A DNA stretch of 64,000 nt from Tomocerus qinae (lineage: Eukaryota; Arthropoda; Collembola; Entomobryomorpha; Tomoceridae), in contig CM034546.1 of assembly GCA_020055645.1 (NCBI GenBank), forward strand, positions 16,244,001-16,308,000, given 5' to 3'. The translations under genes and the position numbers were made by a program. The notes under the pieces were generated by a model. It searched no databases and was not told the origin of the DNA. It saw only the letters and a list, made by a program, of their open reading frames with translations. Positions within the stretch are counted from its first letter, which is position 1; each line of letters starts with the position of its first letter. Of this stretch, positions 8,601 to 58,000 are shown piece after piece.

Positions 8601-10532
8601 ATAGTGGAAGAAACATTTGACGACTATGAAAAGACGATCAACAAAAATATCAAAATTTCTATGGCATTAATTCTAAATGAAAAACATGGGAAATCGGCCT
8701 ATAACATGTTGATGATTTTTGGATACATCCGACCAGATGAAGTTCATTCCAAATTTCTTTTAAAAAGTTCGAAATCGAACGTTAAATCCTTAATAGGTGC
8801 CATTGATCTATTGGAGAAATACTGTTTGGTGAGCAGATCTGGATCAGTAAAGGAATGTCCATACGATGACGGATTTTTTAATAGATTGCTTAACAGAAAT
8901 GAACAAATGGACATGGCATTATTGAGCATACATCGTTTACTTCAACAAGTAATTCGTCATAACGGCAAAAAAACAGAAAAGGAGACACTTAAAAAGATCC
9001 TAAGCTGCAAAGGATACGTGGACTACAAACTAATACCATATACAAAGTATGCTGACGAAACGCTACAAAAGCAATTTATAAAGGTCAAAACAGAATTACT
9101 AGATCAAGAGCAATTGAGAAGAATGGTCAAGCAAAAGAGATACGAAGAAGCTGTTCAACTGGCAAAGTTTATTGATGAACAACTAAGTAACAACACCACA
9201 AAATACAATTATGCGATTTGTTTAGAGAAGAATGGACAGTTTGATGATTGCATCAAAATTATGGAACCAATTTTTTCTCCAAAAAAGACAAGCAATATTG
9301 AATTAATAACTAACCTAGACATTTTATTTGGACACCTTAAGAAAAAGAAGACAACATTACTTGTTGAGGAAGACAGAAAGTTACTCGAAATCAAAATACT
9401 ACCAAATGAAAAGGATGTTTGGAATATTTTGCTGAATTCATACTTGCGCGTGGGAGAATTCGACAAAGCTTTTACTACTGCGGGGGATATCATTTTTGAA
9501 GTCGGTCGAATATTCAAAATTCTGGCTGCCACGCAACTTCCTTTCGTATTAAAATTGGAAGGAAATGACGTTGCTTTAAATTTGGATGACGAAACGCAAC
9601 AAATTTTCTTCAAAGAATGGTCTCGGAATCTTTCATCTTTTGACCGACTTACACCGACTGAGTTGACAATAAAAAACGTCCAATTCTCAAGAAATGGACA
9701 ACTTTTAAAAGAATTGATTATCAACAAAATTTTGGATCTTAAGAAAATCAAAAGACTAACAGTCATCTGCAACGAGCAAAGAAATTTGTCAATTTCTCTG
9801 AATGATGAAGTATGCATTGACTATCTTGAACTACAAAACGTAAAGTTGGAAGATTGGGAAAGGAGCATTTGGACCGTTCGGGAATTGATATTATCCAATA
9901 TTCCATTTGTTGAGAAGACACAGTTAAAATGCATAGAATTGGACATTCGAAATTCTTCGGTGGACATTTCTTGTCTGCCACAAATGGTAGAAAAACTGAC
10001 TTTATCGGAAAATACAAAAGTTTTTGCTAGTGGTGAACTTCAATTACAAAATTTGAAGTTGCTGGTCTTGAATAATGTAGAAACAACCTCCCAAATATCC
10101 AACTTCAAATCATTGCCAATAAAAAGCATTCACTTCAATCAACTCAAAGAAGTTAGTTTAAATCTACCTAAGGGGATTCAAATAATAAAAATTACCAACT
10201 ATTGGAACCATACAACTATTGTTGGTAATGAACCCATCAAAATTAACAAACTCATCCTAGAAGACTTCTCTTTGGATGAAGTAGACAAAATTTTATGTCA
10301 CTTTGAAACAGATACTCTCGTCATTTACAAAGCGCTTGGGTTATCTACAAATACTTTTGTTGAGTTAGCAAATCGAAAAATTAAAACTATTGCAGTTGGA
10401 GTTTTCAATTGGAAGCAAGAGGCTATTAAGAGTCTTCCTAAGCATATCGACATTTCAGAGTATTACCAACTCGCAGGAGGAATTTGGAAGGGAGTTGAGA
10501 AAGGTAAGTTTTGCGAATTGGCAAAGTTATGA
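5692..10532 (+). CDS. NLR-like receptor: tandem CARD, NB-ARC ATPase, TPR-like and LRR-like C-terminus
   Basis: Three exons join in phase 0: about 5656-5805, 7289-7588 and 7671-10532, giving 1,091 residues from the Met at 5692. That Met is the first residue of CARD helix 1, but an upstream exon is possible because a strong acceptor ends at 5655. CARD1 is residues 1-84 and CARD2 about 102-184; both share the phrases YDRQ-I and F-P-ILRNTGN-H. The NB-ARC has a Walker A GMGGVGKT (about 255-262), a Walker B CLWIYDN (about 325), an LITSR sensor motif (about 355), a GLPLA-like NLPLAL (about 415) and a SIHRLLQQ winged-helix motif. Residues about 560-700 look TPR-like; 700-1080 are irregular leucine-rich. 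A strong donor (AAAG then GTAAGT at 10503) just before the stop could lead to a further exon. By family this is an ATP-switched oligomerising receptor recruiting CARD partners; ligand and partner are unknown. Confidence 0.82.
6010..6818. mobile_element. Inverted-repeat DNA element in intron 1 of the NLR-like gene
   Basis: About 100-bp terminal arms, 6010-6109 and 6719-6818, are inverted copies differing at only a few positions; both contain TATTATGGGTCCAAGC at the outer end. No transposase is present between the arms, which instead hold the 19-bp tandem array. No clear target duplication was found. Confidence 0.72.
6272..6552. repeat. 19-bp tandem repeat, about 14 copies
   Basis: The unit is TAAATTTTCGAATTTACTC with scattered point changes (AAATTTTG, CTTAG variants at the edges). 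It sits inside the inverted-repeat element of the first intron of the NLR-like gene. Confidence 0.9.
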
Positions 10533-18292: not shown

Positions 18293-20722
18293 AAATTAAA
18301 TAACATTCTCAATCCACTTATACAATATTTAAATTTGTCTAAGAATAAATTGTTACTGTATATATGTTGTTTATCATTTTTATAGTATCGTAGCTAGGTA
18401 TATATGTCGTAGTATAACTGTACCCTCTGTATAACTGCGCCATTGTACTAGTATGACTGTTCCTCGGAAGTTATACTGGGATAACCGATCCCCCAAGTTT
18501 CAGTACAACTGTTGCATTCTTACTTACATTACATTACTTCCATTACATTGCGAAGCATGAGTTAATAAGACAATTATGCTGCTTTATAATGATTATGATT
18601 ATAATTTATGCTCAAAACCTTATTAGCTTGATTTACTCAGTCAAACAGTAATTATGTCGGCAGAAGTAAAAGCGTAAAAGAATAATTAATTGTACTTAAC
18701 ATTCTTACATGCACTGGCAACATGGCACTTGTAACACAGCGTCTTGCATCTGCAGATTGATTGACTACCGTAGGAAGTTACCGACTTTAGGACAGTGATG
18801 TACTAAAATACACTTAATTGTATTAGTTGGCCATGCCACTGTGTTTACTTTGACTGACCAAGTTCCAACTTTCGATTCGTTTACCATGGTGTCGATAATG
18901 CCTTTTAAGCACTGTAGTTGTAGATTTCCATTTTCGCGACAATGAACGCGAATAAACGATGAATGCGACAACACTTTTAAATTTTCTGAAATGATAGTAT
19001 CATTCAAAGCGGGACAAGCGCTTTCCTGTAATACCTTCAGTATTTTGTATAAATGATCGTAATTTTTTATTTCTTGGACTTTTTGTCATCCCGGTTGACC
19101 TAATACAATTAAGTACATCACTGCCCTAAGACAAATGCTGAAGTGTAGTTATTAGAGAATTTGAACCAATCTAATAATAATAAAAAGCCAGTTGATAGTC
19201 GATACTTAAGGAACGGATTAAAAAGGTCTGTAAGATTTTCAGAAAATTGATTGACAATACAAGTTAACAATTATATCGCATGGACAAACTCCCACGTTTA
19301 GTACACAAACACAAAGAGATACTTCATACATTTCAAACCGTTGTCCCATTTATTGATTTTTGATTATCGAGAGAATGAAGTTTCGTTATTAAATATGTCT
19401 GCATTATAATGAAATTGTAGTCAATTTAGATAATTTCATATAAATAAATAAATCATACTAGGGTGAGGTTGTTGACTGGGAGAAACACTGAATACTTGAA
19501 TAATAGAGAAGTCAATAATAAATGCACTGGTAAGCATTACGTGAATTGAATTTTGGGAGGGACTTTCGTTTTGAGTTGATGTAAATATGTGGAGTACCTA
19601 CGAGTTTAACATCATTTGCTACAATTTAATGGTTATGGAAATGAAATTTCTGTGGAAACTATTTCCATTCAATACGGTCTTTATTTATCTTCATTCAACA
19701 CTACTGTTTCGTAAACCATAAAACCACTTGCATTGCTTATAAGTATATAGATGCAATAACACATTATACACTCCTTTATTCTCTAAGCTGTCTAAGTAAA
19801 TACCACTCTCGAAAAGTAATAAAACAAATATTCCCTACCACTACCACTGAAAAAAAGTATCATTATTTCAAACAGTAAGTTATTCCAATTGGGAATTTTA
19901 AATTTATTATGCATCGAATGTTACATTTTAGTAATTGCTTTCATCTTAGACCCTTTTCTGTTTCACAGGGCTCGATTATGAATTGGTCGGGTTTTGGGGT
20001 ACCAAAATCAGCAAAAATTAAAAACCCTGGTCACTCTGGATTAGGTGTAAGTCGGCCACCAAGGAGCATTTATTAGAGATATTGAAATATTTTAACTGAT
20101 ATTTATTTTCAATTAGACTGTTTAATAAATCAGAAACTTTGCCGTTATTATTTATTGAAAGTGGTAAATATAATATTGATATTTAGGAAGGAAGGAAACC
20201 CAAAACCTCCTTTTCTGAGTTTGTTTGTTTTTTCTGTATTTGGGATTATGGGTTCTTCCAGTGCCACTGATCTGCCGTTGGTAACTGTGGGGCTCCACTC
20301 CGTTACCAAACAAAACAATATATCACTGTAAAATATTTTTAACATGTGCCTTAACTCCAGAAGTATAGTTAGTTTTCAATTATTAATTTTAGCATTCAAA
20401 TCGTTGGGCCATCTTCCAAAAAACCTTGGATTTTAATTTTGATACCCAAAACCCAATCGATTTCCAAAAAACACCTCCATGCCTTGTTGCGGTCTTGTAT
20501 ATTCAATGTACAAATACTTCTAGAACTTTATGAGGAATTGAAATACCTACACCATTAAAATTAAACTATGTACAAAAGTCTTTTGTTATCCTGTCGTAAT
20601 TTTCTTGCCGTGTCAATTCTGTTTTAGCACACCATTAACTAGTAACAAAAAGAAATCCTGCATTTTTAAAAATTTACTACCAAACTTTTCAAGTTTTAAT
20701 TCCTATCTTGTTCCTGTTTTTC
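18293..20722. other. Intergenic, no gene seen
   Basis: Between lectin 2 and the ionotropic receptor. Parts after about 20400 match copy 3 at 29830-30200 (for example the phrase CTCCATGCCTTG against CATTTCATGCCCTG). The extra length compared with copy 3 (2.4 kb against 0.5 kb) indicates insertion here or deletion there. Confidence 0.5.
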
Positions 20723-23002
20723 ATGGTAAAAATGTCTATGAAAATATTAATACTTTTCATGTTGTTTTCTCAAAGCACTGAAATAATGGATGCGGCAAAA
20801 ATTCGTTTGAAAAATTTACAAAGAGCCATATATTTTAAAAATTTTAGTTCTATTTTAAATTCGTTTTCCGATTGTGCTGTGACAATAGCTTACGATAACG
20901 GGGGGCCAGTTCTGGGTCACAATTTTGATTTTGAACCTCCTATTACAATTGGTGATTTTGGCAATACTAAAATGAGGAAACAAGGCATGAGAAAATGGGT
21001 GCACTGTCATTTTGTAGTCATTCTTAAATATAGCGATACTGTAAGTAGACCTCACATATCGTTTCTTAAATGTAATTCAGAGGCTTTATTCGAATCAGCA
21101 ATTGCCATTTGTAGCGAACAATTATTATATACAATGTACATTGTTCCTAAATCTATTCACGAGGACGTAAAATTATATTTCAAAGTGCATATGGTTTCCC
21201 CTGTGTTTATGGCCATATTTAATTACGATCAAAAGTTGTACAATATTGGAAAATTGTATAACCTGTCATTTGATTTAGTACTATATAAAATACCTTTAAA
21301 ATCAATATATTATGCGGAACCCTCGCATAAATTTTCATCGAATGAAACAAGTGAAGTAATGTTGGAATATCGGAGAAAACTTGATTATTATTTCTTTGCT
21401 GCATTTTCCACAAATATTAATTATCATCATTGTTTACAAGAATACAAAGTAAATCCTACAAGCACATTTGCTAAAAATAAGCCTTGGATGTCACCTCATC
21501 AAAACTTACAGCAAAGTGGACTGGAATTAAATACTTTACTAACAGCATTGTTATTACACAATATGAATTTTAGTTTCGAAGGTAATTTGCAAACCAACAT
21601 TGCAAAACTGAAATCATTGGATGAACATTGTCAAGTGACGATTGGTATATTAACGAAAACAACAAATAAATACCATAGTAATCATAAATATACAATTATC
21701 GGATCAACTGATTTCAGCTTTATAACTTGTGCTGGGGTCCATCCCGAAATTGCATGGAAGCTTTATATACATCCATACGACACAATTTCTTGGCTGTTAA
21801 TTATTTTAAGTTGTGTTGTTCTAACTTTTGTTGTCACAGTACAAGAAAAACTAACATTTCTAAAAGGAAAGTTTTTAAAACTGTTTTTTAATAATTTATT
21901 TCAAAATTTTGTTGCCTTGATTGAACAAGGAGTTACACTGAAGAAATTGTTCACCAAACAATTTCTATTTACAACATTTGGAATTTGGATACTTGTTGGG
22001 ATTATTTTTAGCAGTGCGTATAAGAGTATAATTGTTAGTAAAATAACGTCACCCATAAATTCCTATGCAGAATACGATTATTTTAATAAACTCGAGAATT
22101 TTTTGATTATTTCTCCAAAATTATTTTATTATCAGATATTAGGTCCCCACAATGGTCATAAAGTATATCCAGATGGAAAGATTGTCAGAGAAGAATTCGA
22201 AACAAAGTTGACATATGAGGTACCTAAAACAAATGAAAATCATGGTAGTGTAATTGATCATTGTGGAATATATAATTTTCATGGACTCTTGGAATTTGAT
22301 GAAAGTTACCACCTTGTCAATAAAAGTGATGCCCAGATAATTAAAGATAATCAGGTTTTTGACATCGCTGGAATTCTAGGCTTCGAAAAAACAGAATGGG
22401 AGTGGTCAAAAATAAATTTTGAAGACAAACACGGAATACTTCCTGATTTTGTCATAAAAAATTTACCAAAGAGATTTCTTATGGGCTATCCATCAACTCG
22501 CTGTAATTTTTCAACTCGGAATTCATATTTCAGTAGTAGTTTCAAATTGTTAGAACGCTGTTATCAACGTGCTTACCTTGATTACACTAAAAATATTGAT
22601 TTGATGGAGAAATATCTTTTTGATGCCAACTCATTTTTAAAAGGTAAAGACAAAATTGGTGTTCACAATCAAATAACCATATTTCCGACTTTTATTTTAC
22701 AATACTTTTATAACCAGATGCAAGTGCTATTGTCTTCGGGTATTTATTGGCATCATGAAACTTGGTATTCATATTTTGAAGAAAATAAATTCAAAAATAT
22801 GCTTACTAACAGTTCATTAAACTTGGGAAATAGAAACGGCCATGCGAATATTAACAAAAGTAATCTAATTTCATTGTTTTATATATTTTTTTGCCTTGTC
22901 GCCATGTGTTTGTTGGTTTTTCCATTAGAAATATTGTACCAATGGAGACAAAATAATCAAAATAAATGTTTATGGATTAAAAATAAATCCAGGAGTAATT
23001 AA
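20723..23002 (+). CDS. Divergent ionotropic receptor (IR), single exon
   Basis: An uninterrupted 759-residue frame. The first Met of MVKMSMKILILFMLFSQ begins a hydrophobic signal peptide, which decides the start. An extracellular N-terminal half precedes the ionotropic-glutamate-receptor-like channel core: TM1 near residues 354-375 (SWLLIILSCVVLTFVVTV), TM2 near 415-445 (GIWILVGIIFSSAY, followed by IIVSKITSP in the position of the iGluR gate motif) and a final TM near 714-736. A ligand-binding lobe lies between the last two. Such divergent IRs are ligand-gated cation channels of chemosensory neurons; the ligand is unknown. Lack of introns is common for this class. The first about 100 codons are duplicated as a broken copy at 30.2-30.45 kb. 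Confidence 0.75.
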   Translation: MVKMSMKILILFMLFSQSTEIMDAAKIRLKNLQRAIYFKNFSSILNSFSDCAVTIAYDNGGPVLGHNFDFEPPITIGDFGNTKMRKQGMRKWVHCHFVVILKYSDTVSRPHISFLKCNSEALFESAIAICSEQLLYTMYIVPKSIHEDVKLYFKVHMVSPVFMAIFNYDQKLYNIGKLYNLSFDLVLYKIPLKSIYYAEPSHKFSSNETSEVMLEYRRKLDYYFFAAFSTNINYHHCLQEYKVNPTSTFAKNKPWMSPHQNLQQSGLELNTLLTALLLHNMNFSFEGNLQTNIAKLKSLDEHCQVTIGILTKTTNKYHSNHKYTIIGSTDFSFITCAGVHPEIAWKLYIHPYDTISWLLIILSCVVLTFVVTVQEKLTFLKGKFLKLFFNNLFQNFVALIEQGVTLKKLFTKQFLFTTFGIWILVGIIFSSAYKSIIVSKITSPINSYAEYDYFNKLENFLIISPKLFYYQILGPHNGHKVYPDGKIVREEFETKLTYEVPKTNENHGSVIDHCGIYNFHGLLEFDESYHLVNKSDAQIIKDNQVFDIAGILGFEKTEWEWSKINFEDKHGILPDFVIKNLPKRFLMGYPSTRCNFSTRNSYFSSSFKLLERCYQRAYLDYTKNIDLMEKYLFDANSFLKGKDKIGVHNQITIFPTFILQYFYNQMQVLLSSGIYWHHETWYSYFEENKFKNMLTNSSLNLGNRNGHANINKSNLISLFYIFFCLVAMCLLVFPLEILYQWRQNNQNKCLWIKNKSRSN

Positions 23003-27986: not shown

Positions 27987-29675
27987 ATGAACTCCAATTT
28001 TATGTTTGGAATTTTATCTGTGGCAACTTTATTTGTTACAGTCGCCTCTTTCCCTCAAAATACCCCAACTAGTGGTAACTGATTTTAAATTTTATTTATT
28101 ACCCCAATTGTCCTAGTTGATCTAATTATATTTTATTTTATATACAAAATCAGATCATGAAAAGCCAAGGGTTTTTGTTGTTTTGTTGGATATCCAAAAA
28201 TTTCGATTTTTTGCATTTTGGGTTTTTATCCTACAAAACCAGATTTGTGCTGTTTGATACCCAAAAAATTTATAACTAACCAGCCTGGGTTTTTCATGCC
28301 TTGTACAGAATATACTTGTAAATGCAAATAATTTTTTTAAAATTTGAATAGATGCCATTGCTAAAGCTAAGGAGTTGCGAATGGAGATCATTGGACAAAT
28401 CGGGAACAAAATATTTTTTAAGAATGCGGTGAGAAAATTTCCTTTATCTCAATGCCTTATTAACTTATTGAGTGCGTATTTCTCATTTGAGCCGGGCTAT
28501 GTACTCATGGTTTTAGAATACATTCAAAAGTGGCAGAAAGAATGTATTTCATCCCAATAGCAACAAAAATTAAGTTCAAAAAAATCCCAAAATCCATGGG
28601 TCACTTCCACAGGCTGGGGGACCCCCAACTTTGGATGCAAATTACAGCCGACCCCTTTGAGCTACGAAGTCAATTTTTTTTTCAAAAACAATAGAAAACG
28701 TAGCCTGACACCGGCAAGAAACAAATTCACCATTTGAAACTTTTGACGGAATATTTTAAAGTTTAATTTATATGGAAGATTTGTCTCCAAAACTACTAAC
28801 TAACTTATGCTACTAGCTAACTTAAAACTTTAAAAATCCCGCCAAAAGTTTCAAATAGTGGTAAATTTGTTTCTTGCCGGTGTCAGGATTTATTTTCTCT
28901 TATTTTTGAAAAATAATTCGACTTCGTAGGTCAAAGGGTTCGGCTGTAATCTGCATCCAAAGTTGAAAGCCCCCCAGCCTGTGGAAGCGGCTCATGGATT
29001 TTGGGATTTTTTTGAACTTACTTTTTGTTGCTTTTTGGGATGAAAGAAATTCTTCCTGCCACTTTTGAATGTATTCTAAAACCATGAGTACATAGCCCGG
29101 CTCAAATGAGAAATACGCACTCTATTACTTAATGGAGGTAGTTATTTTCCTAAATTGACTATATAATTTCATACATACCCAATAATATTTTGTTGTACCT
29201 TATAAAATTATGTTTTCTATCTGTCGTACTATAGACGTTGTCGTCTTGGATGGGTGGTGAAGGCCGGTGTCGTGCTGCAGGACTGCAATTTGCATCATTA
29301 AAGAACAGGGTTGAATTCGCCTTTGTACGCCAGCAGATGGAGAATACTGACAGTAAATAATTATCAAAATTAGTCATTCTTGCTGAATTATCATAACCGC
29401 AACCATTAGCATAGATCTGTTGTTAACCCTTGACTATGAGCCCTACTAATTTGATTATTTGTATAGGATTGTGGGTGGCTGGACGTTTAAGAGGAGCGCC
29501 AGAACAAATCTGGAGAGCCTATGAATGGAGTGATGGTTCGGACGTTAGTGATGATATTAATGTTACACCTACTGGCCAGGAGTTGTGTCTTTTAGTGTCT
29601 GGTGACGATAATGTCTTCACCGATAATTGTTATCGTGGTAAATATGGCCTTTTATGTGAACTCACTGTCGTATAA
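27987..29675 (+). CDS. Secreted C-type lectin 3
   Basis: Exons 27987-28074, 28352-28428, 29235-29352 and 29467-29675, again 88, 77, 118 and 209 nt, 163 residues. The protein is almost the same as lectin 2: signal peptide, IGNKIFFKNA, SWMGGEGRC, LWVAGRLRGAPEQIW, and TDNCYRGKYGLLC, with N for H in GDDNVF. Intron 2 is enlarged by a 653-bp inverted-repeat transposon. Frames and splice sites are intact, so the gene is probably functional. Confidence 0.88.
28470..29122. mobile_element. 653-bp long-TIR DNA element in intron 2 of lectin 3
   Basis: The ends are inverted repeats of about 200 bp beginning GAGTGCGTATTTCTCATTTG. The flanks TATT at 28466-28469 and 29123-29126 are a 4-bp duplication; the paralogous intron of lectin 2 reads AACTTATTACTTAATGG without interruption. 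No coding capacity. The superfamily is not clear from the TIR alone. Confidence 0.85.
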
Positions 29676-30450: not shown

Positions 30451-31022
30451 TATATGAGAAAGCCAGGCATATGCAAATTATAAGCAAATGGGTGTATACC
30501 ATTGCCCCATCCAGTTGAACAATTTGCTCTCAATGCATGGCAATTCTGCAATGCAATAATGCAATGTGCAAGGATAAGGATCAGGTTTTCTACTCGACTA
30601 ACTCTACTCTTCCACTTCACTATGCATGCAGGTCAGGTAACTACTAAATGATTGTCTATTGTCTGCCATACATATTCTGCAAGTGTGCAAATAATATGAA
30701 ACAAAGCAGCCGGGAAAGAATTTTTGCAAATTTTACGCGGTTACTCAGCTCAAGAGTGAAATTATCTTTTGCAAAACCGCCAGCTGCAGCTCAAAATATT
30801 TATTTTTATACAATAACTTAAGTACAATAAGTTTCACTTGCACTATTATATTGTAATTGTTGTCTACTTTTCTGTCTGTAGTACAGTTAGACTGAAATTA
30901 TATAATATTTTATTTGATATTACAAATCTTATTACACATCAAATTCTCGTAATTGGTAATCCTCAACGTTCAACGTAAAATAATAGTTCATATAAATTAT
31001 CGAGAGTTAGAACTTAAGAACA
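30451..31022. other. Upstream region of the caspase gene, no gene seen
   Basis: AT-rich. No other coding frame was seen. It must hold the caspase promoter, but no convincing TATA element could be fixed. Confidence 0.4.
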
Positions 31023-34000
31023 ATGAATTTTAGTTCTGATTATTCTGCAGAAGAGGTGAGAGTTTCTATTCGCACTATAAAAACTATATAATATGTACTA
31101 TATATAATATAACTGTTGAGATGGGTGGAATCTACTCTTTGCAATTTTCAATAGTTTAAAAGTTTCAATTTTAATTATAACTTGGTCTGTTACATTCCAG
31201 GAGTGTTATCCTCTGTCCAGAAATGGCCGCGTCCTTGTTTTAAATATGACTAAGGATGAATCCGGAGTACGGGAAAGAAAGGGTTCTGAATTCGATATTT
31301 CCAAAATTCGAAAAACGTTCGCCAAACTCCACGGGTTTAAACTAGAAGTGTGCCAAAACTTTACAATGCAAGTAATAATTTATCAACTTTTTCAAAATAT
31401 TAATTAATAACCTTTACTTTCACATTATAACCATGAATTATTATATTTAAGGACATAAAAGGAAGCAACGGTATGCTAGCTGAGTTCATTGAGCGGCTAA
31501 TCAATGATAAGGTAGATGCACTTTTTATTTTTATCATGGCCCATGGAGGACCCAAATCTGCTTTGTCCGCTTTTGATGGCAGAATTAACTTCAAAAAGGA
31601 CATTCTTCGGAGGTTTAGTATCGAAGCAGAACCTCTTCTGGCCCATATTTCAAAAGCCTTTGTGGTAAATGCCTGTCGAGGTGATGAAGAGCTTTTTTCG
31701 TCCTGGCGGTTTGATTTTGATAACTTTCCAGGTATGTCAGCATCCTACTCTTATGACAACACTTTAATTCTATACAGCACTTTGGAAGGGTTCGTTAGTA
31801 ACAGAGATCCAGCATCCGGAAGTCCTATGATACAAATGCTTTGCAACGAAATACGAATTAGTTCCTCTAATCACCATTTAGTGGACATTTTCAATAAGGT
31901 AATGTAAAACTAATACCATTAAAATTCAGATACTCAGAAACAAACTTAGTTTTGTGTTTTAAAGCACTATTCATAATGTCGTATTAGGAAAACAGCCATA
32001 TCTAAGCAACGTTCTAGATTCACACTGACAACCAACTTGTACCTACATTATTTGTAATTCTATGCAGGCCAGCCTAAAATTGAAGAACGAAGTTGATCAA
32101 CTACCTGAAGTTAGGATTTTGGGGTCGTTCAAAAGGTTTTGTCTTACTCAATCTGCGTAAGTATATATAAGTCATTAATGTAAATTATTATTTATCGGTG
32201 TATAAATTGCTTTATATAAATTGATAAATATTATATTGATATATAAAAGATTGTTTACTTCAATTTCAATCTTGTCATTGCTTGAAATTGACAGTATTTA
32301 ATTTTGTCCTTTAGAAATAATTGTAATTTGACATTTGACATTTGTAAATGAGATGCACTTATATTTTAACGAATTTATAACGTTGCACTGTATTATAAAT
32401 GTTACATAAAATAATAATAAGGACCCGTCCGCTTTTGTTAGTTGAACTTCGGTTTACTAGTTTACTTGTAAATTACGTAGGTATTAATAAATTGAACTTT
32501 AGGCGTAAACTTTCCTTTGAACTAAAACTTTCCTTTTTTGAACTAGATCAACCAATGATTCAGTTTTACTTCCTTTAGGTATGACAAACATTCAAATGAT
32601 GCAAGCATATCAACAACGATTGCAGTTCCGACATTCGCTCATCATTCAGAAAGGGTTGGACAAAATATTAAAATAGAGGATCTTAAACCAAGGCAAAAAA
32701 TAAAGTACGTGTCAGCGGTCTTCCAGGCCGTTCTACTTATAATATTATTATGTAATAATAATACCTTATTGTAATGAATACAAATAATATCAGGTGGTTG
32801 ATGTATTTCTAGCTTCAAATACCACAATATTTCATTATACGCTCGGATGCTGTACAAAACTCAAGTGGAAACTGGAGCTGGAAAGTCTACCTGCTACAAA
32901 TTCCTTTTCAGAGACGATAGTAAAGATGAATGTTCAGAAATTGAAGGCGTGGCATTTAATGCCATCGGAATGATATTATATAACAAATTGCAAGTAAGCA
33001 AATATTTACCCATCATGAATATCGTTTTAGGAAGCTGTCATTTACATTTTTTAGGCTAGCGCTAGGAACCGTTTTAAAGTATTCTTAGGAATTACGAAAC
33101 TAAATAGTGACAATTAGCGAAAACTATTTTCTTAGTGGAATTATTTCAAAAAAAGTTAAGGAAATGTAGATAATAGATTAAAATGAATGCGTTACATAAA
33201 GGATAGTAAATTCAAGAAGAGAACAAGTCTTATTAAGTTTAATGGGATTTACAACTTCAATTACTAAGACAGAAAAGGGCAAATTTTACAGTTACAACAT
33301 TTGAAAGTTTTCGTTTATGAAAATATGAATCTTTCTAATCACTTCAGGTTGGCCAGTGCGTTCAGATAAAGGAAGCCGACGTGGATATCAAAAGCTGGGA
33401 ATACCGGAATTTTGGATTGGCGGAAAATTCATTACAGTTAACTTTTAAAAATGGCCACGGTGTAGCCATTGTAACTGAAATGTCTGATTTGCCTAAATAT
33501 CCATTAATGAATATAACTGCTCTTCGTGATGTTGAGCATAAATTTCACCGGGATGTAATCGGTATATACTTACTATTGACATATAAATGTTTTTCTTTTT
33601 TTAAATGTACGTTACGTACTGCTTTTTAAAGATGTGTTGGGGACCATTACTCATTCACCCGAGAAGTTTGAAGAGACTGCTAAGGGTAGCAAGTTTCGGG
33701 CACCCATATTAAAGGACACTTCCGATGATACTGAAGTAAGTCACTCTTTAGTGTATTTTATTCCACTTTTTTCATAAGCATAGGCGAAATGTAAAGTGTT
33801 AAATGTCATTTCAGATTCCTCTCACTATTTGGGGAAATCGTCCTATGTTGGTTAAAGAATCACTTGTGTTTATTCGCGCAGTTCGAGTGATTAAACCTGC
33901 CGAAATCAGAGAATGGGAAGATGACTTAATGAGTGATTATGAAATAAGGACTGTCCATTATAGCATTTCCCAACAATCAGTTATTACAGAGGTAACTGCT

Positions 34001-34207
34001 TTTTACAAATCATGCCACATATTATGTTTTTACAGTTTACTGCAAGTAGGTTATAGTCTCGATCAGTAATAGTAATGCAATTATTTTTAACAGATAACTA
34101 CAGTGGATCAAGTCCCTTGCAAACATAAACAAATGGTGAAAAACTTTTTTAACATCAACAAAGAAAATGACGGTGGACCAGAACGAAAAGTTAGGAAAAC
34201 CGAATAA
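31023..34207 (+). CDS. Caspase domain fused to tandem RPA70-type OB folds
   Basis: Ten exons join without any phase conflict: 31023-31055, 31201-31371, 31452-31898, 32068-32156, 32579-32704, 32813-32993, 33348-33561, 33632-33735, 33815-33991 and 34094-34207, 551 residues. Residues about 15-247 are a caspase: RERKGSEFD at the S1-pocket arginine, catalytic His99 in IMAHGG, catalytic Cys143 in VVNACRG, then small-subunit phrases LILYSTLEGFVS and NRDPASGSP (binding-pocket Arg). There is no death-fold prodomain. After a 30-residue linker, residues about 275-390 form a replication-protein-A DBD-A-like OB fold (IKIEDLKPRQKI, EIEGVAFNA, LQVGQCVQIKEADV). Residues about 395-520 form a DBD-B-like OB fold (DVIDVLGTITHSP, IPLTIWG). 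The C-terminus is basic. The RPA zinc-binding DBD-C is missing. The caspase alone is certain; the fusion rests on phase and on the OB part lacking a start codon of its own. Confidence 0.75.
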
Positions 34208-37654: not shown

Positions 37655-40612
37655 TTATTCCATTTGCAGCTTATTTTCTAGTTGGGGCGAACGATAATCA
37701 CTGTAGGTCAAAATGTCATTAAGAGTATTTATTTTTAGTCTATTTCTTCTGTGTCGCCTCATAGCCCCCGCTACCGAAAACAATCTTTCAACTGAACCAG
37801 AAGAAGCCGGTATTCCTAAATATTTTCTGGCTAATGAACTAGCAATGGGATATTTGGTTTTTTTAGATTGCCAGAACTGTAAAGGATCAGAATTTGAATT
37901 GCATTTCTCTTCATGAAATAGATAAGACTCGCATTCCGTGTTCAAGTTAGACGATCTATCTTCTGAAATATTTTGAACAAAATTAAAAACTCCTGAACTG
38001 CTTGAGGGCATTGCTTTTGATGTTAGTTTTCTCTTTTTTGAGGTTGTTGTGAGAGATGTAGTGCTAGTACAAGGAATTTCGGATATTTCTTTTGCTACGT
38101 ATGTATCAAAAATGGTTTTAGCATAATTTTCGGAAGGCACATTTAGGCGAACAAGGAGCTTTCGTTCAGACGAATATTCAACCGTTTCAGAATGTCTTTC
38201 ACATCCCACGAAAATAGATAACTTCATCCGAGGATCTAAAATGGTAGCAATAACAAAATTATCATTATTTATTACACTATCTTCAAATCGTTGCTTGATG
38301 TTGCAAAGAAGATCTCGTTTAAAGGACTCATAATACTGGCATAGAGTATTTTTCGTATCCTGAAACCACTTGATAATACACGGGATGGCTAAAGAAGACG
38401 TTATATAGTCTCCTTGAAGTTCGTCAGTTGTGGTTTGCCAATGTTTTAAGAGCCTTACAAGTTCTAAAAGTTTTGTGCGATCAAGGTATTTTGGAGGTTC
38501 CAAATGAAAATTTTCTTTGGTCGTAGCGCTGTACTCCAAAATTAGTTGTTGCGCATGGACAAACATATTGGTCTACAAAGAAGCATTTATCAAAATGAAA
38601 AAAATGTCATATGAAATTGAAATGAAGTTTGAAATTGGACAGTCCAATTTCGTAAGTTAAGATAAATTGTACATTTATGAAAATACCTTTACGTCTGTCA
38701 GGCGTTCCAAAGTTAACAAAATTGCATTCCATCTTGTAATTCCAATGTTTGGCAATCCTAGTCCTTTGCATTTTTCGCGTAATTTACTCATGTAATTAGG
38801 GCGGCGATGGAAAAACTTTACAATCTTTTGGGCATACAATACGATTTGGCTAACGTCACGATCTTTCTTTATGGCATCATTTATAGCGAGTTGCAAAAGG
38901 TGAGCCATGCACCCAATTCGTTTCCATGTCCCAACATATATTATAGAGCTGGCATCATTAGATTCAAAATTATTATCACTTGAATCGTCCTCCTCATTTT
39001 CCGTATCAAAATTATCATCATCATCTCTATCCAGATCAAGCAAGGCACTGGATGGTCCATTGTCTTCTAAAAGGAATTGAAGTTTAAAAGCTTTTTGCAT
39101 ATTAGATGCATTGTCCGCAACTATGAATCCAATTTGATTGGTTTTCAGACCCACCTTCTTTGCCACAGTCATTACTGTATTTTCAATGTTCGCGCCGGTA
39201 TGGGACATATTGAACTCTTCAAATCCAATGGTTTTATTTACGTTTTCAAAAACACTGTTGATGTATTGAGCTTTTACTCCTAAAACTGAATAGCCATCCT
39301 TACTAGTCCATAGGTCAACAATTAGATGAACGGATCCGGGTGGTTGACTTTTAATGTTAAGTTTCAAGTTGTCGTGAATAGCTGACATTTTATTATCTAA
39401 ATGTCTCTTCACAGTTCTTCTACTACGTAAAGTTACTTGTGGCGACAGAACTTCAACTAATTTTTTAAAAGCCGATCCTTCCACTATTGAAAACGGCATG
39501 CCGTCTACAGCGACGACATCTAAAATCGCCTGTTCAAATTGTTTCTGTCTAGAAGATTCTAATGGCAGCTTTAGTGTAGCGGTCCCAAATGCTTGAATTT
39601 TAGTTTGTCCACCATTACTGTCAATTGTTTCCGGCTCAATTTGGTGACTATTCTGTTTAATTTTTTTAAATATCATTAATTCTTTTGCTATGATATAATA
39701 TCCTACCACAATTTGGACAAACCAAATTTATAGCTTGACATAATAACCGTTAAATCTTTTTTTGATCGTTTTTTTAATGTTGTTTTTTACCGAACTAATA
39801 ATAAACGGGTTATGTGCTGATTTTAGAATGCCCAAATTCATGGCAGGATAATACAATTTCTTACAATAATTTTTTTAACTTTTATTTCCGAAATGCCTAC
39901 TCACCCTTAAATGCCGAAGGAAATTCCCTGTCTGTCTTTGGAACCCTGTGATTTTAGTTTGGCAATAAATACACTTATATTGCGGTTTACCTTCATCCCC
40001 CTCTTTAATTTCATTTGCTTCCAAAGGACGAAAATATTGAATTACTTGAGAAAATGACAAGGATTTAATATTTGTTCTTCTTCTGCGTGGAGTATGAACC
40101 TTTGATGAATAAGCTGTAAGAATTAGCATTATTATGATTAGTAATTAAATTACAATTAAGATATTTGTCTTTTAAAAATGATAACTAATATTAAGGCACT
40201 CCTAACATACCAATTCTTTCAACAGTAGAACTTAAATCGTTTTTAGGTTGCTCTCCTTCAACGAATGATGTCCTTATATTCGTAGCATCGTCTTCCTTAG
40301 AAGTGCTGGCATCATTCGATTGCTCGATGCCATTATTGCGTATATCCTGTTCTTCATTTTCTACAGTTACCTCGTCATCTGGAGGGCTTGAATTTACAGT
40401 GTCATTATAGTCAGTAATTAGGTCATTAAGCGAATCTTCATTTACAACAATTATATCACAGCAGACATTATCCTCGTTTTCAATGTCCTGCGAAATTTTA
40501 CAACAGCATAATTTAGTATGTCAGTTAAGTTCTGTTCATAATATTATTTCTTTCCCTTGAGTTGAGAGCATTGCTTTGTGTCATTGTGAATGTATTGCAA
40601 TTTACTTACCAT
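37655..40612 (-). CDS. hAT transposase with BED zinc finger
   Basis: Five exons on the minus strand in perfect phase: 40610-40612 (ATG directly before a GTAAGT donor; an upstream start in the same exon is possible), 40211-40487, 39905-40113, 38687-39652 and 37655-38572, giving 790 residues with no internal stop. An acidic N-terminus precedes a BED finger (CIYCQ, NFLRHLRNSH across the third splice). The RNase-H-like core shows the first Asp in LIVDLWTS, the second in FIVADNASNM, the CMAHLLQLA insertion and GITRWNA. The glutamate follows in SGSVERLFS, within the C-terminal hAT dimerisation domain (KYPIASSLARKYL). It lies within its own transposon's termini, transcribed toward the left end, and all catalytic residues are present. 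Confidence 0.9.
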
Positions 40613-46454: not shown

Positions 46455-47740
46455 ATGGCTATGCGGAAAATTAGTCAAAGGTATAGTACAAAAATGGAAA
46501 AGTATGGAATAGCTGAAAACCCAAAGACACAACTCTCAACACAAAGAGCTGCGCCGTAGCGTCGAAAAAAGAAACAAAGTTCCTAAAAGGAAGTATACAA
46601 TTCATCCATATAAAGAAAAAATATTACGATGGACTGTTCCCGATAATATTTTCAAGACGTTAAAATCAACCCATCAAATCGTCGATGGGGTTTGAAATAA
46701 ACATCATTGTATTGAGTCTAAGGCTGAATGCTATGCTCTGAAAGACTCAATCAAATCAATCTTTCATATTTTTGGATTTGGAAGGACAGTCTCTGTATTC
46801 TTATACGGGGATTGTTTGCACAGTGCAAATTTCAACGCTCAAAAATATATTCGTTATAGACGCACTCAAGTTGCCACAGCAAATAAAAGATAATTTAAAA
46901 TGTGTTTTGGAAAGTGAAGACATCACAAAAATAGTTCACGGGGGTGCAAACGACGTCTATAACGGGATTTCGACATTTTTCTTTACCCGTACATTGACAC
47001 CCAAACAGTATATGCGGCTTATAAAGAACAAGAAAATGTCTTTACATATAATAAGACCATGGGATTCAAAGCTTTGGTGAAAGAATTTTTGGAAATTGAA
47101 ATTCCTTAACAGCAGTTGGTAGATTTTCATAGATTGCACGAGGGCCTTGTTAAGTACCGCGTACTTGATGTCAAGTTACTTCTTGGAGTGTGGTTGGAAT
47201 TTTGTAAAAGATTAGATACCGGACGGTCCGGGATCTTCGTTAACGAGTTAATCTTAAAGTCGAGGAAGCTTATGCTAAATAATCTCTATGGTGATAAACA
47301 GTACCCCTCGTTTGATAAAGAATTTCTGTATCTTCAACAAGAGTTGATGTCAATACTGTTGCTAAAGAACTGTACAAGCTTCGCGACTATACCGCTCGTA
47401 AGCAAGACATCCCACCAAAATGCGTACTGTCTACTGATTGTTTTAAAAGAATAGCAGAAACAGGAAGGGTGCCAGCCAATCTGGCTTCTGGTTTAAAAGC
47501 TGCAATTGTTAGGAAAAAAGAATTTTTTTCCTCCAACAAAGACTTTGAAAGGGATGTGTTATAGGTGTCGCTAGTTTGGTTAGGTGTTGATTGCATAGAA
47601 GAAAAACAACCCAAATCTGAAGCAGAAAAAGATTGGTACAATCAACATTCAAAAGAATGGGAAATAGAGAAAAAGTGTCTAAGGGACAAACAGTGGGAGA
47701 AGCGTGAGCTAACAAAAACTGTACATTTTTATCGACAATA
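46455..47740 (+). pseudogene. Decayed Rrp6/EXOSC10-like 3'-5' exonuclease with HRDC domain
   Basis: Similarity runs through several frames. HPYKEKILRWTVPD (about 46600) gives the pre-exonuclease region. LDLEGQSLYSYTG and VQISTLKN (46772-46840) hold the first acidic pair, and KIVHGGANDV (about 46930) the next motif. RDFDIFLYPYIDTQ follows only after a frameshift, then a stop at 47107. HEGLVKYRVLDVKLLLGVW (47140-47190) carries the last motif. LYKLRDYTARKQDIPP and LASGLKAAIVRKKEF (47365-47525) form an HRDC domain. At least two frameshifts and several stops make it non-functional. Intact relatives degrade or trim RNA with the nuclear exosome. It sits inside the hAT element, so it was probably captured from the host. 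Confidence 0.8.
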
Positions 47741-49014: not shown

Positions 49015-52000
49015 ATGACGTATCTACAATTTCGGTCTTCCGGTTTGTTAAACTTCTTTTGTTTTCCAATTCGTACCGTAAAATTGTGTATAAAAAAATG
49101 GAAACTATGGTGGCTGTTGATGGTCTTCGTTTACTTATTGTGCGCATTCATTTACGCCATTCAAATAAGCCGTAATAAAACCACCGTAGAGCTATTAGAA
49201 GCGAGTAACAACTGTAAGTAAATTGACCTGTTATGGTAAGGTTATTACAATGTACTTTTCTCACTGTTTCTGACTTCTGACCATACGTTTTTTTCCTTTT
49301 ATTTAGATTTTTTGGATCAAGAACGGTACGATAAAATGGATCACATAATCTTCACACCAACTTGTCGGATCCCCAATGTCAGTGCCTGGGATAAATCCAT
49401 TCTACCCTTTCTGAGGCCAAAATATGCTGCTGATTGTGGAAGCAAAATGAGTCAATGGACATATGTTGATGAAACGGTAGGAAATTACATCCCAAATCTA
49501 TTTTCATTTGTATTTCTAAGGGTAGGATTTCATCCTACATTACATTAAATTTCTTTTTCTTGTGTCAGACGTAGCAAGCAAATGTATTTCATTTTTAATG
49601 TCACTGAAAATGGTTTTGTTTTTATTTAACAGAGTATTATAATTAACGTTAGTGCCATCGAAAATGGTTGAGTTTCTTATTATAAGTCTCTGGTGGATGG
49701 GCGACCTCACTAAGGAATAATTTATCGCTATTGTGCTCCATAGATGTCCCACCACTGCATTTGACTGTACATGCACGTTACCTTCAGTGCAGTGGTGGGG
49801 CATCTATCGAGCGCAATAACGATGATTATTCCTTAGTGAGGTCGCCCATCCACCAGAGACTTATAATAAGAAACTCAACCATTCAACAGGTGATTGTTTA
49901 CATTCTATTTCATGCTGCTACAAATCCATAAAACGGGATGAACAATCAACAAGTCGTTATGATTGGGCAGACAGGAAAATTGACCCTTTCAGAGATACTC
50001 GTTTGGGCGGAAAGTTGTAGGAATTTACATTGAAAGAGTACGGATCTTTTAGTAAACCGCCTGTAACTTTTGATCTAAAAGAGTAAAGTGGCATATGTCA
50101 GCGAGTGGAAGTTAGCAAATTTAATCAGCTTCGCATATCTGTAAAGCACAACTTCCTACGATGTCTAAAACTGAAGTTATAGCCATTTTACCAAAACACC
50201 TTTTTTGATATGGGGGGAGAATAGAGCCAATGTTGACAGAAATTATTATAGATGTGTAAATGAAAAAAGCATCACATTGTTGAGTGAAATCTTTTAAGCC
50301 TTCTGCTGTAAGATTTTACAAGAAAACTATTTAAAGGAAAAAACTTAATTTTTGCCCCTTTCAGGGGCAGGGGGTCCCAAAGGTAAAATCTTTGAGAATT
50401 TTTTTAAAAAAAACTATGAACCGAATTAAATGAAACCTTTACCGAAAGTAAAGTAGTAACATTGTCCTGACTTGGTTTCAAAATAGTTTTGAAATTTCGA
50501 CTTTTACTGTTTCTAAAATAAATAGGAAATTCAGAAATCATGTTTTGAGGAAAATACTAAATAATTGGCGTTCAAGTGTTTTTATAAAATTTTGACGAAT
50601 TCAAATCAAAGAAGATTCTCAATGCCAACATCCCATTTAAAATTAACTGTTTGACCTGTGACCCCCATATGGGGTGGGGTCACAGGTCAAAATACTCAAG
50701 TTGGTAATAATGCATCATGTGACGTATCAATCGAAAGGATATGACTTGAATAGTCATAATATGGTATTTATTTGTTCATACAACGACCTCCAATGGAGGG
50801 CAAAATTAAAAATTCAATTTTCTACAAATGATATATTGCGAGTGAGATATCCATCGATAAGTAATGACTTGAACAGTCATAATACTTTTTTTAAACCTTT
50901 GGCTCCGACCCAGAGTATAAAGTCGGCCTTTGGTGTAAATTATTTTCAGATACCGTAAATGCCTTAGATCGTAAACCAATTAAATACATAATACACAGCA
51001 TAATCAGTTTCATGGTAATATTCATATAATTAAAGTACAAATATATAATTTCCATCATTTCACATTAAAATAAATCCCAACTCTGGCAAGTTATAAAACG
51101 AGTTTTCATTTTTCTAGGCTTTTCAGCCACTACAAGTGGCATAATAATATTACTGCAAAATATTTGTGTATTAAAACACTTAAACTTTAAGTATGTCACC
51201 TCTCAGTTTCATATCATTTAATATGTAAAAGCAGCTAAAAACATGAGAAATAATTTACGGCACTTACGACATGCCGCCAAATACCAAATGCTGTAAATTC
51301 AATTTACGACATTTGCGGCACACTCGACACCTTAATCCAACCGGAGGTTATTGTTTGATTAAATAAATACCGTAATATGACGGCTTAAAAATATATAAGA
51401 ATATTATAAAAAGACTTTTATAATATTCTTCTAATATCTAAATTTCCTATTCAATTTCGAAACGGTAAAAGTAAAAATTTTGAAACTATTTTGAATCCAA
51501 GTCTGGACAAAGTTATTACTTTAATTTTGGTAAAGGTTTCATTTAATTCAGGTATATCCTCAAAGATTTTACCTTAAAGATCCCCTGACCTTGAAGGCGG
51601 AGAAAATTATCTTTTGATTTCAAATTGTTTCATTGTAGTGCCATAAGCTAAAAGAAGGCCTAAATGATTTCTCCCAATGTCATGTTTTTTTTATTTACAC
51701 ATCACATTACATCACACATAATTTTTGTCTTCTTCATTATTCATAAGTAATACTTATTAAGTAACGATAATACAAAAATAACTGACCAAACCTTTGTAAA
51801 TGAATAAATGATTTTATTTGGCTTAATGCAATGTAATCAAAATTTAACAATTAATATACATTATCATGTTTTACCAATTTAATTGTTGTTCATCGTTTAG
51901 AAAATTATTTATTAACCATAGCATATAAGTGAGGCAGAAGATCAGTGCACCACAGTTTACTTAGCTTCAACATTTCGTCTTTAATGTCGGCCTTTTTTAC

Positions 52001-55000
52001 TATGACGTATTCTAAATCATTTGGAGGTACATAAATAACTAAATATGCCAAGTCAATGTTGCAAATGTTTAATTGCCCTTGTATTTGCAAATACGTTTTG
52101 TGTTTATTATTTGGAACCAATTGACCGTTTTGTATTTCCAAGTAAAAATTTGATTCCTTCGATTTATCCTGGGTTTTCTTTTTCGTTCTAAAAAGAGAAT
52201 AGGGGCACTTGATTTCTAAAAGGTGCAGCATACCACCTTCTAAAACACAGTAATCTGGCGAAGCTCCAAGAAACGGTATTTTGGGATTGACAATAAGTCC
52301 CACATTTCCTTCCAAGTGTGAATCGGTGAAAACATTCTGAGTATCCATAAATAGCTTTATCGCTTGAGGCTCATAATATTTGCCATGTCTTAAGCTACTG
52401 GAAGAAGGTATAGATAAAGTCTGCTGAAATGCTAACATGGGATTAGTTGAATCTTTTAAGTGAGCAAATTTGTGAAAATTGGAAGCTGTAATTCGACAAG
52501 CCCTTTCTTTTCTCCACAAAGAAGATCTACTTTGCAACCTTGCACCTTCTTCAATTCTTTTAGCATCTGGCACCTTCTTCAATTCTATGGCAGTATCACA
52601 AAATTTCTGGTATTTTGAAATTTCCCATCCAAAGTATGTCCAAAAATCGCAAAGTGAATTGCAAGCAGTTACTCGTTGAAAAATGCATTCGGATAAGTTT
52701 ATCACATGGGATTCTATAATAAAAAATGAAAAGCTGTAAACTAAAGGTGACAAAGGTATCTAATAATCGAATCGAATAATTATCGAATAAAATCATCTAT
52801 CATATTTACAATAACATTAAAATATTTTACCTTTGGGAATAACAGGAATAAAATTGGCGGCATTTCACAACCAATATGGGCAAATTTCTACACTGAATGG
52901 AATCGAACACCGTTTTCAGGAATTGTGGGGTAACATAATTCTTTAAATTAATATTACCAGAAAACAATGCGCACTTTTCACCTAATCTTCTAAGCTTAGG
53001 TTTTTGCTCAATTTTTTCCACTTTCACTTCCCCAAATAACAGTGCAGCATCACTAACTGGTTTTTTCACATGCCATACTTTGGCTTGTTGAGTAGGAGAG
53101 GTTGCTTCAGGAAAAAATTCATCACCAATCATAACGTAATGTTTAATGTACATTAGCACACTGAGTACATGTTTGCATTCACCGTGATTCCCTAAAGGAC
53201 AGCCACAGTGAGCCCAATTTATGGATAATGGATAAGCATGATAACAAATATTGACATTGTATGCTAATCCTTTCATGGATGCCTTAATTTCAGCTTTACT
53301 TTCAGGTAGGTTGGAAGCAGCGATTCGTTGGAAAAGCATTGAAGTACACGTCCTGATTGCCATAATTTGTGAATTTGCCTCTTTGGTGATTCTGTTAGAA
53401 ATTTCCGAAAATGGATGCAAAGCTGATTCGGGAAAGCACGAAATATGCACTTTTAGTGTCCAACCGGTTTTAGGTGTCACTCTTCCTTGCAGCCCAAACA
53501 AGTCTAGAATAGTTCAAATTCTTTGTTGTCTACTTCGTAATGCCAAAAGGAAAAATTTAATATTACCGTCAGTATAGTAGGGAAAATTAAAAACTATATC
53601 CACACAGGTAGTACACAACCATGGAAAGTCATCATCCACTTCTTCCTCAACTATGCCAATACAAGCCATGTGGTACCATTCTTCACATTTTTCACATTGT
53701 ACCATTGTTGGATCGTTTGTCTTTCGACAGATACAATACAGACGATTATCCTGATTTTTAGGTTTTGACATCTTAAAAGTCTGTATAATAAAATGTGACG
53801 GGTTGTTACAAATTAAATAAAAAACAGTAAAATTTAGTAGATGCAAAATTCAATACCTGAACAAAATTGAATGATGGTAAATCCAGATTTCTAAAAAGGG
53901 CCCAATTTTTCTTGAAAAAAATCGATTACATTCCTATTACGAAAACAGAAAATTCAAAAATTTATGGTAACAAATCTATGCGTTAGATAAACAACAAAAG
54001 GAAAGACATACATGCGCGGTGGCAAATTCTGTCAGTATGTTTCGAGGTTTCGAAAAACCCACGACGGTTTTTTGGGTTTAAGGGATGTTTATATGACTGT
54101 ATGCATAAATTCAAGCCTATATTATACCACGTAGGAAAACTACCACTGACAATAACATCGACTGTGTAATCTCGCAACTGCTATTAATTATGCATATACA
54201 AACAAAAATGAAAGCGCAAAAAGATGTATTGTTAACATATTTTTAACATATTGTTACACAGCAAACACGCAGTATTTTTTTGATCACCTATAACACTATT
54301 ACGGTTTGATAACAACTACTAGTGAGTGATCCATGATAATATTTTACGGATTAAGATGACTTTATGAAATTATTTGTTTAATTCGGAGCAATAATTGTGA
54401 AGGAGCACAGCAATGATTTAAAAATGTAAAGATTTAATTAAAATTGAGCATAATTATGTATACAACAGTATAGTCTCCACAACACTTAATTTATATATAC
54501 CTAGTCTTCTCGATACGATATTTCACGTAAAACTGTAGAAGCTACAAATTGTTTCCACCTGATTGTATGTTTGTTTGCATTTTTGAATAGAAATATGACA
54601 AAATTAGTATGTTTTACTTATCTGGGTGAGCTTTAGTGTTCATTGTTGTATGTATTGTAAAAAACCCAATAAACCCAGGGTTTTTAAAGTGAACCGTAGT
54701 GGGTATGCCAATTTTTCAAGCTTTCAGTCTTCTCAAGTATACAAATATTTCCTATGCAGGAATATTTCACATTGAAGTAATGACATTTTTTAATTCGCAA
54801 AGGCTTTTAAACTAATAGCGTAGTTGTAAAAAACAGAGAAAGAAACTGCTTAAGATATTTGTTTTTGTTGGAGAATGTAAATGGGAACAAAGCGAAATGG
54901 AATGTCGATAAAAAATACTTCACTTTTTAGATGACAAATGTACAATATTTTTCTCTTTATTGTTTGCAATTAAAGACGTTTATCACGATTAGTTTCTAAC

Positions 55001-58000
55001 GAAATAATATATTTTTCAAAAATTATCACCAAAAATTATGTCAATTTTTGCAGTCTAAACTCCATGTTAACCTGTTCGGCTATTTCACTATATCAGAGGA
55101 CGTAAAGTTAGCAGCGAAATAGATTAAGCAGATAGTTATAAATTACAGTGTATGTAAGTATCAATGTATATAAACAAAAAGATTCTATATTAGCAAACAC
55201 TAAAATTGCTACTACCAATCAAAATAAAAATATTTATAATTTAATACACATAATAATACACATAATTCAGCCTAAAAACTAACAGTTTTTCAGCTGAATT
55301 TAATTATGCTTTCGGATATTCCTTGGCATGGTTAGCATTTCGGGGTAACCTGCATTGAATTTAAAATTCGTAATTTCGTCCTTGCATATTCTTTAATTCT
55401 TCCTGAAGGACCTTTTTATTTATTATGGAACCTACACTTTTAGAATCTTGGAATATCCAGGACAAAAATGCGGTGATTGATGTTTGATATCTCGGCCTTA
55501 AATGCTTTCAAAAAAATGTACAGCAAATGAGAAACCGTGAATATGAATTATTACCAAAAATCAATGTATCTGAAATGCATTTTACTCACCGTACAATTAT
55601 TCCCCAGAATACTCACTAGGTTTATTTATAACAGGGTATGGAAACAGTGTTCGGTTAGTGTATGAATTAAAAATTCTTTTTAGACAATCAGCCGCAAACT
55701 TCATAAAAACGTTCCAATTTAAACATTGGCATATTATTTACGACAACAATAATGAGATTTCTTCGATATATAAAACTCTCGCAAAAACAGGTTTGGTAAA
55801 CCACAAACGACTAAATTAAACGCGGTTAAGCTAAACAAGATTTAATTACAGAGAGTGAAGTTCAGGAAATATAAAATACAAAATGTAGCCTAAGGAAAAA
55901 GGAAAATTTGGAAGTTATTAACACTAATAATGTCTCACCGAGCCATTATTGGACTGCCATTGAAAAATCAGGCAAAGCTTGCAATTTGGGTTCGACGACT
56001 TTCAAAAACTAGAGGGTGTTTTACACCAAATGAAAGCATGCGAATATGTAGCAATCATTTTGATGGACACATGATTAAAAAAAGTGGACAACTGACCAAA
56101 GTTAATTTTTGTTTTTCGATATTTGTCTGATATGAAATAGGTACACAAAATGGATGATGAAAGCGTCCATTAAGTTCTCAATTAAAGTAACTAGCAATGC
56201 TAATCACTGTCTTGGGCTTCTCAAATAATAGACGCAGTACCACGATATTTGCCATGGAATGCTTTGAAAAAAACAACGCCGACTAGTGCTAGAAGCATAA
56301 ACACTCCATCTAGAACCAAAATACGGCCAATATTTTTTTACGCTGCTCAAAATATGATAAAGAATCCTAAGATATTACAGCGTTATATGGGATTCAAATC
56401 CGTGGAAGTTTTAAATGGTCTTTTTGTCTTCTTTTCTGCACCATTTAATAAATTTGGATTACTAAGTGGATTTAAAAAACTAAACTATACACCTAATCCA
56501 ACTACTTCTTCTAAGAAAAGAGGACCTCAGAGAAAATTGACTTTACAAGATGAGTTTTTAATGTCGTTAATAAGGCTACGAAGGAATGTCCAAATTGATA
56601 TCATAGCAGATATGTTTGGAGTTTCCATAGATTCAGCATCTGCCATAACCAATACCTGGATTATTGTAATAGAAAAAATGTTTCGTTTAACGCCTCTTTG
56701 GATTAATTCAGCAGATGGGGCAAATAAACTACCAGAGAAGTATGCTATGTATCCAAACCTACGAGCTATTCTGGATTGCACAGAAATTGAAATAGAAAAG
56801 GCTTCAGATGCTAATATACAAAAAACTCCTTTAGTAACTACAAGCAAAGGAACACGGTTAAAGGGCTAGTGGTCATGTAACCTAATGATCAAGTACATTT
56901 TGTTTCACAATTATACCATGGATCTGCATCAGACAATAACATCGTAAATCAATGTGGAATACTGGACTTGTTTAAACCAGGTGATGCAATAATGACTGAC
57001 AGAGGTTTTACCCTGGATAAAGAGTGTCAAAAAAGGGCTTTCAGCTAATAATACCTGATTTTTTAGCTGGCACTGCCCAATTGGCTCCAGATGCCGTTCG
57101 TCGAAGTAGAGAGATTGCTCGCCTTAGAGTTCGTGTAGAAAACAAGATAGGAGCAATAAAGTTTTTTCAAAATACTGCATTCAAAAATACCATTGTCTTT
57201 ACATTGCATGATGGACAGCACAAAATGAAATTCAGTTTATTATGCTTCAATTTAGTTGTTGGTTAGTTACATTTTACATTATTTTAATAATATTGAGTCT
57301 ATAAAAAATTAATAGGTCCCTTAAATTTTATGGTCAAATAACGGCTTAAGGGAGGCTTAATTGACCTAAGTCTCTATTCTGTATGTAAGTTATCAATCCG
57401 AATAAAATAGATTTTTCTCTGGAGAAGTTGATTTTTCAGTCCTTGTTCGTGCTTATTGTTTAGTGCCAAAATTCCGGTTTTTAGTGGCTTAATGGCTGCC
57501 TATTTTGGAGTTTTACGTTCCTGCCTTTCCGGGTATTAGTTATTTCCAACAGGTCCAGATAAGTACTGAAAAATTTTGGCCAAAAATGTTATTTCATGAC
57601 ACAAAAGTGCTCAAATAAATAAACTATTTTTGACTTTCCTATAGCAAATAATTTCTGATATTATTTGTTTAAAGAGTTTAAAAGATATTAGAGATACTAC
57701 TGTACTTACCACGACAACAATTTGTAATCATTTTTTCATGGATTTAATTAAATGGTTTCTGTCTAGACTACAGATGGTTATGTTGCTACACATATTATAC
57801 TTCCTAAACAAAAAGGAGGACCAAACTACTGTGAGGCTCAGGATGATATACGTATACAAGCTTCAGTCACTCAGGTTAGAACGTTTAACTAATTATCATT
57901 TGAATTTAAGTTTCATACTTGTATTTCTCAAAAATAAGCAAAAAAATATTTACCCACTTCAGTTAAATTTAATCACACTCGGATGGATACATACTCATCC

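Follow-up and report, generated by a model that had tools for sequence, protein, structure and literature searches.

We identified, in the genome of the collembolan Tomocerus qinae, a chain of ten exons that joins in one reading frame a caspase domain with its catalytic residues to a collinear match of the DNA-binding domains DBD-A and DBD-B of RPA70. Read as a single gene, it would encode a caspase that lacks a death-fold prodomain and carries, on its C-terminal side, two RPA70-type OB folds and then a basic tail, with the OB folds triggering the activation of the protease. We hold this complete reading tentatively, with slightly less than even confidence.

The gene model spans positions 31023-34207 on the forward strand of the window, by which we mean the whole stretch of DNA analyzed (64,000 bases, N-free, G+C 33.3%). 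Its coding sequence has 1656 nt, that is, 551 codons plus the stop. The exon edges were fitted by eye to the frame given in a preliminary description of the locus, and not taken from a gene predictor; all nine introns are GT-AG and keep the frame. Exon 1 (31023..31055) carries the start codon and residues 1-11, exon 2 (31201..31371) the first part of the caspase domain (residues 12-68), exon 3 (31452..31898) the caspase core (residues 69-217), and exon 4 (32068..32156), which begins at residue 218, the last part of the domain. Intron 4 (32157..32578) is the fusion junction. Exon 5 (32579..32704) encodes a linker and then the start of the DBD-A-like OB fold, which continues in exon 6 (32813..32993) and finishes in exon 7 (33348..33561), where the DBD-B-like fold begins. 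The latter occupies exons 8 (33632..33735) and 9 (33815..33991), and exon 10 (34094..34207) encodes the C-terminal tail and the stop codon. An in-frame TAG is found at 31008, 15 bases 5' of the start codon; an unseen 5' exon beyond the modelled start may nevertheless exist.

The coding signal was consistent with this model. Using a codon table derived from the window's three longest open frames, the coding log-odds of the proposed frame were at least zero in all ten exons (0.0 in exon 4), and higher than those of both other frames in every one of them. The introns scored below zero, with the exception of intron 2 in one frame and intron 6 in all three. The exons were richer in G+C (caspase part 40.0%, OB part 37.9%) than the nine introns (16-32%). 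No second copy of the protein was found in the window, as all eight tblastn pieces (E<=10) were its own exons, and the Rfam and tRNA scans gave no matches. A retrocopy or pseudogene is unlikely, since five introns interrupt the OB part and its frame contains no stop.

The N-terminal half matched the Pfam family Peptidase_C14 (PF00656) along residues 21-233, with an E-value of 1.3e-22 (81.1 bits, for a cut-off of 21.4). The closest PDB structure to this half was the caspase-1 of 1m72 (E 4.8e-11), which we take to be the Spodoptera enzyme. By alignment, His99 (in the motif MAHGG, from residue 97) and Cys143 (in NACRG, from residue 141), both in exon 3, are placed on the catalytic positions of 1m72, found there in THGE and QACQG. 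Arg37 (exon 2) and Arg186 (exon 3) align with arginines of 1m72, presumably those of the S1 pocket that set the specificity for aspartate. The pocket Gln of the QACxG pentapeptide is here Asn. On these sequence grounds we assign the N-terminal half to the caspases, its catalytic residues being intact, and predict protease activity. Pfam gave no match to CARD, DED or any other death fold in the 551-aa protein, nor any match in the upstream ORF at 29427-29672. The preliminary description had proposed a ten-exon, single-frame protein of 551 residues with an intact caspase His/Cys pair and no death-fold prodomain, and our results agree with it in each of these respects.

The OB part comprises 304 aa, starting at residue 248. 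Its residues 19-237 matched positions 167-380 of the 608 of the profile TIGR00617 (rpa1), with an E-value of 2.8e-11. The match is collinear across 219 residues and covers DBD-A and most of DBD-B, following the domain limits that we assume for these profile positions; its score of 42.6 bits is far under the cut-off for full RPA1 (334.2). The sole PDB sequence matching the OB part at E<=1 was 4gnx_C (E 3.8e-6), labelled "putative uncharacterized protein", a segment of which matches the RPA chain 1jmc_A (E 3.1e-36). Against a profile built from three RPA segments of the PDB output, the OB part scored 27.5 bits, while the controls gave at most 9.5 bits (200 shuffles), 1.1 (reversed sequence) and -0.3 (caspase part). 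A chance match is rejected by these shuffles together with the TIGR00617 E-value. The Pfam model REPA_OB_2 remained under its cut-off on the OB half, with 15.6-19 bits for a cut-off of 27. Two further candidates, AhpC-TSA and thiol-peroxidase, were discarded because they scored below threshold and overlap the region that RPA70 matches more strongly. Sub-threshold Pfam matches were also obtained to the OB folds of MEIOB and of telomere proteins (E 0.026 each), and OB folds of the MEIOB, RADX or telomere type are possible closer kin. Neither the N-terminal RPA domain nor DBD-C had any match in the protein with Pfam or TIGR00617. A six-frame pattern search of the window for the zinc motif produced three matches, none of them RPA-like by eye and one containing a stop. 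The prediction of two OB folds like DBD-A and DBD-B, lacking DBD-C, thus held in the TIGR00617 and 4gnx_C matches, and the profile search of the C-terminal part against RPA DBD-A/B that had been suggested with it did find a match, though the Pfam OB models stayed sub-threshold.

The residues of the putative binding surface gave a mixed picture. We assume here that the human RPA70 numbers fall on the aligned letters as we placed them, and that R234 is a charged DNA contact. Phe337 (exon 6), Tyr368 (exon 7) and Trp461 (exon 9) align with F238, F269 and W361; F386 had no clear counterpart in the OB part. The charged contacts compared are changed: R234 corresponds to Glu333 and E277 to Gln, and K343 aligns with a gap (in the RPA-segment profile) or with Phe (in the 4gnx_C alignment). 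The OB pair is not basic, with a pI of 6.28, 33 Lys plus Arg and 36 Asp plus Glu. F238, F269, W361 and F386 are described as aromatics of RPA70 important in DNA binding (PMC10250233), and E277 and K343 are among the RPA residues named in PMC4269926. The RPA-1 of L. braziliensis is described as binding RNA besides ssDNA (PMC4269926), so that RNA is a possible ligand of the OB pair as well. Overall, the OB half is RPA70-like, and it could bind single strands. The basic tail encoded in exon 10 contains the motif PERKVRK, judged by eye to be a possible nuclear localisation signal.

The two halves belong to one protein if intron 4 is spliced out, as we infer. The coding bias favours the phase-matched frame on either side of this intron. 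The frame of the OB part is open from 32559, and there is no methionine in exon 5. The phase-2 donor of exon 4 (TGC|GTAAGT) has the full consensus on its intron side, as in intron 8. Splice sites were scored with a leave-one-out matrix, the donor matrix being made from the other eight donors; the intron 4 donor ranked 695th of 3331 GT sites, a low rank due to the atypical TGC of its exon side, and the acceptor was among the best 77 of 3120 AG sites. As a gene model the fusion is the simplest, the indirect evidence supports one protein, and we consider a single fused gene to be probable. No second copy of any repeated element in intron 4 was found within the window at E<=1e-3. A bacterial promoter scan of this intron gave 4 sites for 3.4 expected, a result that is meaningless in an animal.

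In the alternative of two adjacent genes or transcripts, which we regard as unlikely, the caspase would be short and stop at 32160, through retention of the intron or polyadenylation within it, and the OB folds would come from a transcript of their own, beginning at an unseen exon further upstream or at a start inside intron 3 or 4. Unspliced, exon 4 indeed runs into a TAA at 32158-32160. However, a phase-2 GTAAGT donor left unspliced always reads NNG TAA; the stop is therefore automatic and not a relic of a former end of the caspase, although it would nonetheless terminate an intron-retained form. Intron 4 is also the longest of the nine (422 nt, followed by intron 6 with 354 nt) and the only one to carry an AATAAA (at 32486), and therefore a caspase-only transcript, formed through intronic polyadenylation, is possible; yet the hexamer is uninformative, with 118 occurrences on the forward strand of the window and at least one in 315 of 636 segments as long as this intron. 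As for the start of a separate OB transcript, the region 31899-32578 contains eight ATGs, four of which (31976, 32062, 32353 and 32399) have a GT in phase to join exon 5 and could begin a short leader. Three of them would require the donors GTATTA, GTTGCA, GTTAGT or GTTTAC. The fourth, at 32062, shares the frame of exon 4 and can use the donor of that exon, but a leader from it includes the caspase C-terminus regardless. This ATG (32062-32064, forward strand), just 5' of the intron 3 acceptor, could start a form consisting only of the OB folds and the C-terminal end of the caspase.

Caspases that initiate cell death are usually switched on via adaptor proteins. Under the single-gene reading, the OB pair would most likely bind single-stranded nucleic acid (DNA, possibly RNA), several molecules would assemble along one strand, and their caspase domains, brought into proximity, would dimerise and become active, leading to cell death or to the cleavage of nuclear substrates. 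The best reading of the locus is a caspase that single-stranded nucleic acid activates or targets, in concept an AIM2-like device within one protein, with this mechanism as a proposal. In its favour are the phase-consistent exon chain, the caspase and RPA70 matches (E 1.3e-22 and 2.8e-11) and the three aligned aromatics; the changed charged contacts, the unclear counterpart of F386 and the non-basic OB pair speak against it. The more specific proposal of an adaptor-free caspase whose RPA-type OB folds assemble on ssDNA or RNA, as a condensed counterpart of AIM2 acting against DNA damage, viruses or transposons, is possible but doubtful. Provided that the transcript exists, its product would be a cell-death protease equipped with its own sensor of nucleic acids; and a caspase owning a single-strand-binding module would, if true, couple cell death to DNA damage or foreign nucleic acid within a single molecule.

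The closest functional rival is nuclear single-strand targeting without activation: the OB folds would bring the caspase to ssDNA, telomeres or nuclear RPA partners, with a local and perhaps non-lethal cleavage. The RPA70-like OB pair and the basic tail with PERKVRK speak for this, but the localisation signal was judged by eye alone, and we think this role rather improbable. Less probable still is that, in a real fusion, the OB pair has lost nucleic-acid binding and become a module for protein interaction or oligomerisation. The changes in the compared charged DNA contacts, the non-basic character of the pair and the sub-threshold Pfam OB models would fit such a loss, but three of the four stacking aromatics keep an aromatic residue at the aligned place.

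Relatives of the fusion were searched for in several collections. In bacterial and archaeal contigs, the search gave 31 pattern stretches and no relatives; in viral contigs, the fusion query gave two stretches, neither a relative, and the query with the PDB-derived RPA segment gave none. Since these collections are bacterial, archaeal or viral, their silence is uninformative on animal relatives. No caspase-RPA fusion was found among the titles and abstract openings listed for caspases combined with OB-fold, RPA, other nucleic-acid-binding or unusual domains, a search that left most subscription journals outside. Among other reports, the dipluran Campodea augens is credited with 35 caspases (PMC6938034).

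Other genes and gene remains were detected in the window. Roughly 20 kb before the caspase, a CARD match in two stretches (7289-7609, forward strand; PF00619, E 1.8e-6) is followed, 50 bases later, by a 957-aa frame with an NB-ARC match (7659-10529, forward strand; E 6.2e-11), and the two may form one Apaf-1/NLR-like gene. The caspase described above did not itself match CARD, so its recruitment by CARD-CARD contact would not be expected. Also on the forward strand, we found an open 1195-aa ankyrin-repeat frame that runs off the start of the window (1-3585), a 787-aa frame that is ionotropic receptor-like by eye and unmatched in Pfam at E<=0.01 (20639-22999), and matches to a 3'-5' exonuclease (46742-47077), HTH_Tnp_4 (56204-56866), JAB/MPN (57645-58106) and a SWIM zinc finger (59425-59775), as well as a DUF229 protein in two frames (61579-62465; E 1.6e-12 and 8.8e-30), each of them probably an exon. 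The reverse strand carries the remains of a hAT transposase (37658-39727), with a dimerisation domain (E 1.6e-15) at 37658-38572 and, beside it, a 350-aa frame with no Pfam match at E<=0.01. Further along this strand (51908-53849), a YqaJ-type exonuclease (E 5.7e-10), an unmatched frame and a PHD finger (E 2.7e-10) are found consecutively.

Compared with known systems, the protein shares with short-prodomain animal caspases such as 1m72 the caspase domain, the catalytic His and Cys, the two aligned arginines and the lack of a death-fold match. It differs from 1m72 in having about 300 more residues beyond the caspase C-terminus, the pentapeptide NACRG instead of QACQG, and Asn in place of the Trp of SWR. 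With RPA70/RPA1 (4gnx_C, 1jmc_A) it has in common the tandem DBD-A and DBD-B OB folds, alike in order and spacing; unlike RPA70/RPA1, it has no match to the N-terminal RPA domain or to the zinc-bearing DBD-C, its charged contacts are changed, and a protease is fused to it. The bacterial EACC2 and TRADD-N systems likewise pair, in one protein, a caspase with a second domain, which is variable and proposed to be sensory (PMC8195603). They differ in being bacterial, and the available text of that source makes no mention of an RPA-type OB fusion. The likeness to AIM2 (PYHIN) would be functional, in that tandem OB folds may feed caspase activation in both. Neither HIN nor PYD had a Pfam match here (E<=1 for the 551-aa protein, E<=10 for the OB part), and the HIN of AIM2 binds double-stranded DNA. 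In AIM2, the tandem OB folds of HIN gather on DNA and, through PYD and ASC, lead to the proximity-driven activation of caspase-1 (PMC4646227). That pathway thus uses a PYD, ASC and a separate caspase-1, whereas in the protein modelled here the OB pair sits in the protease itself.
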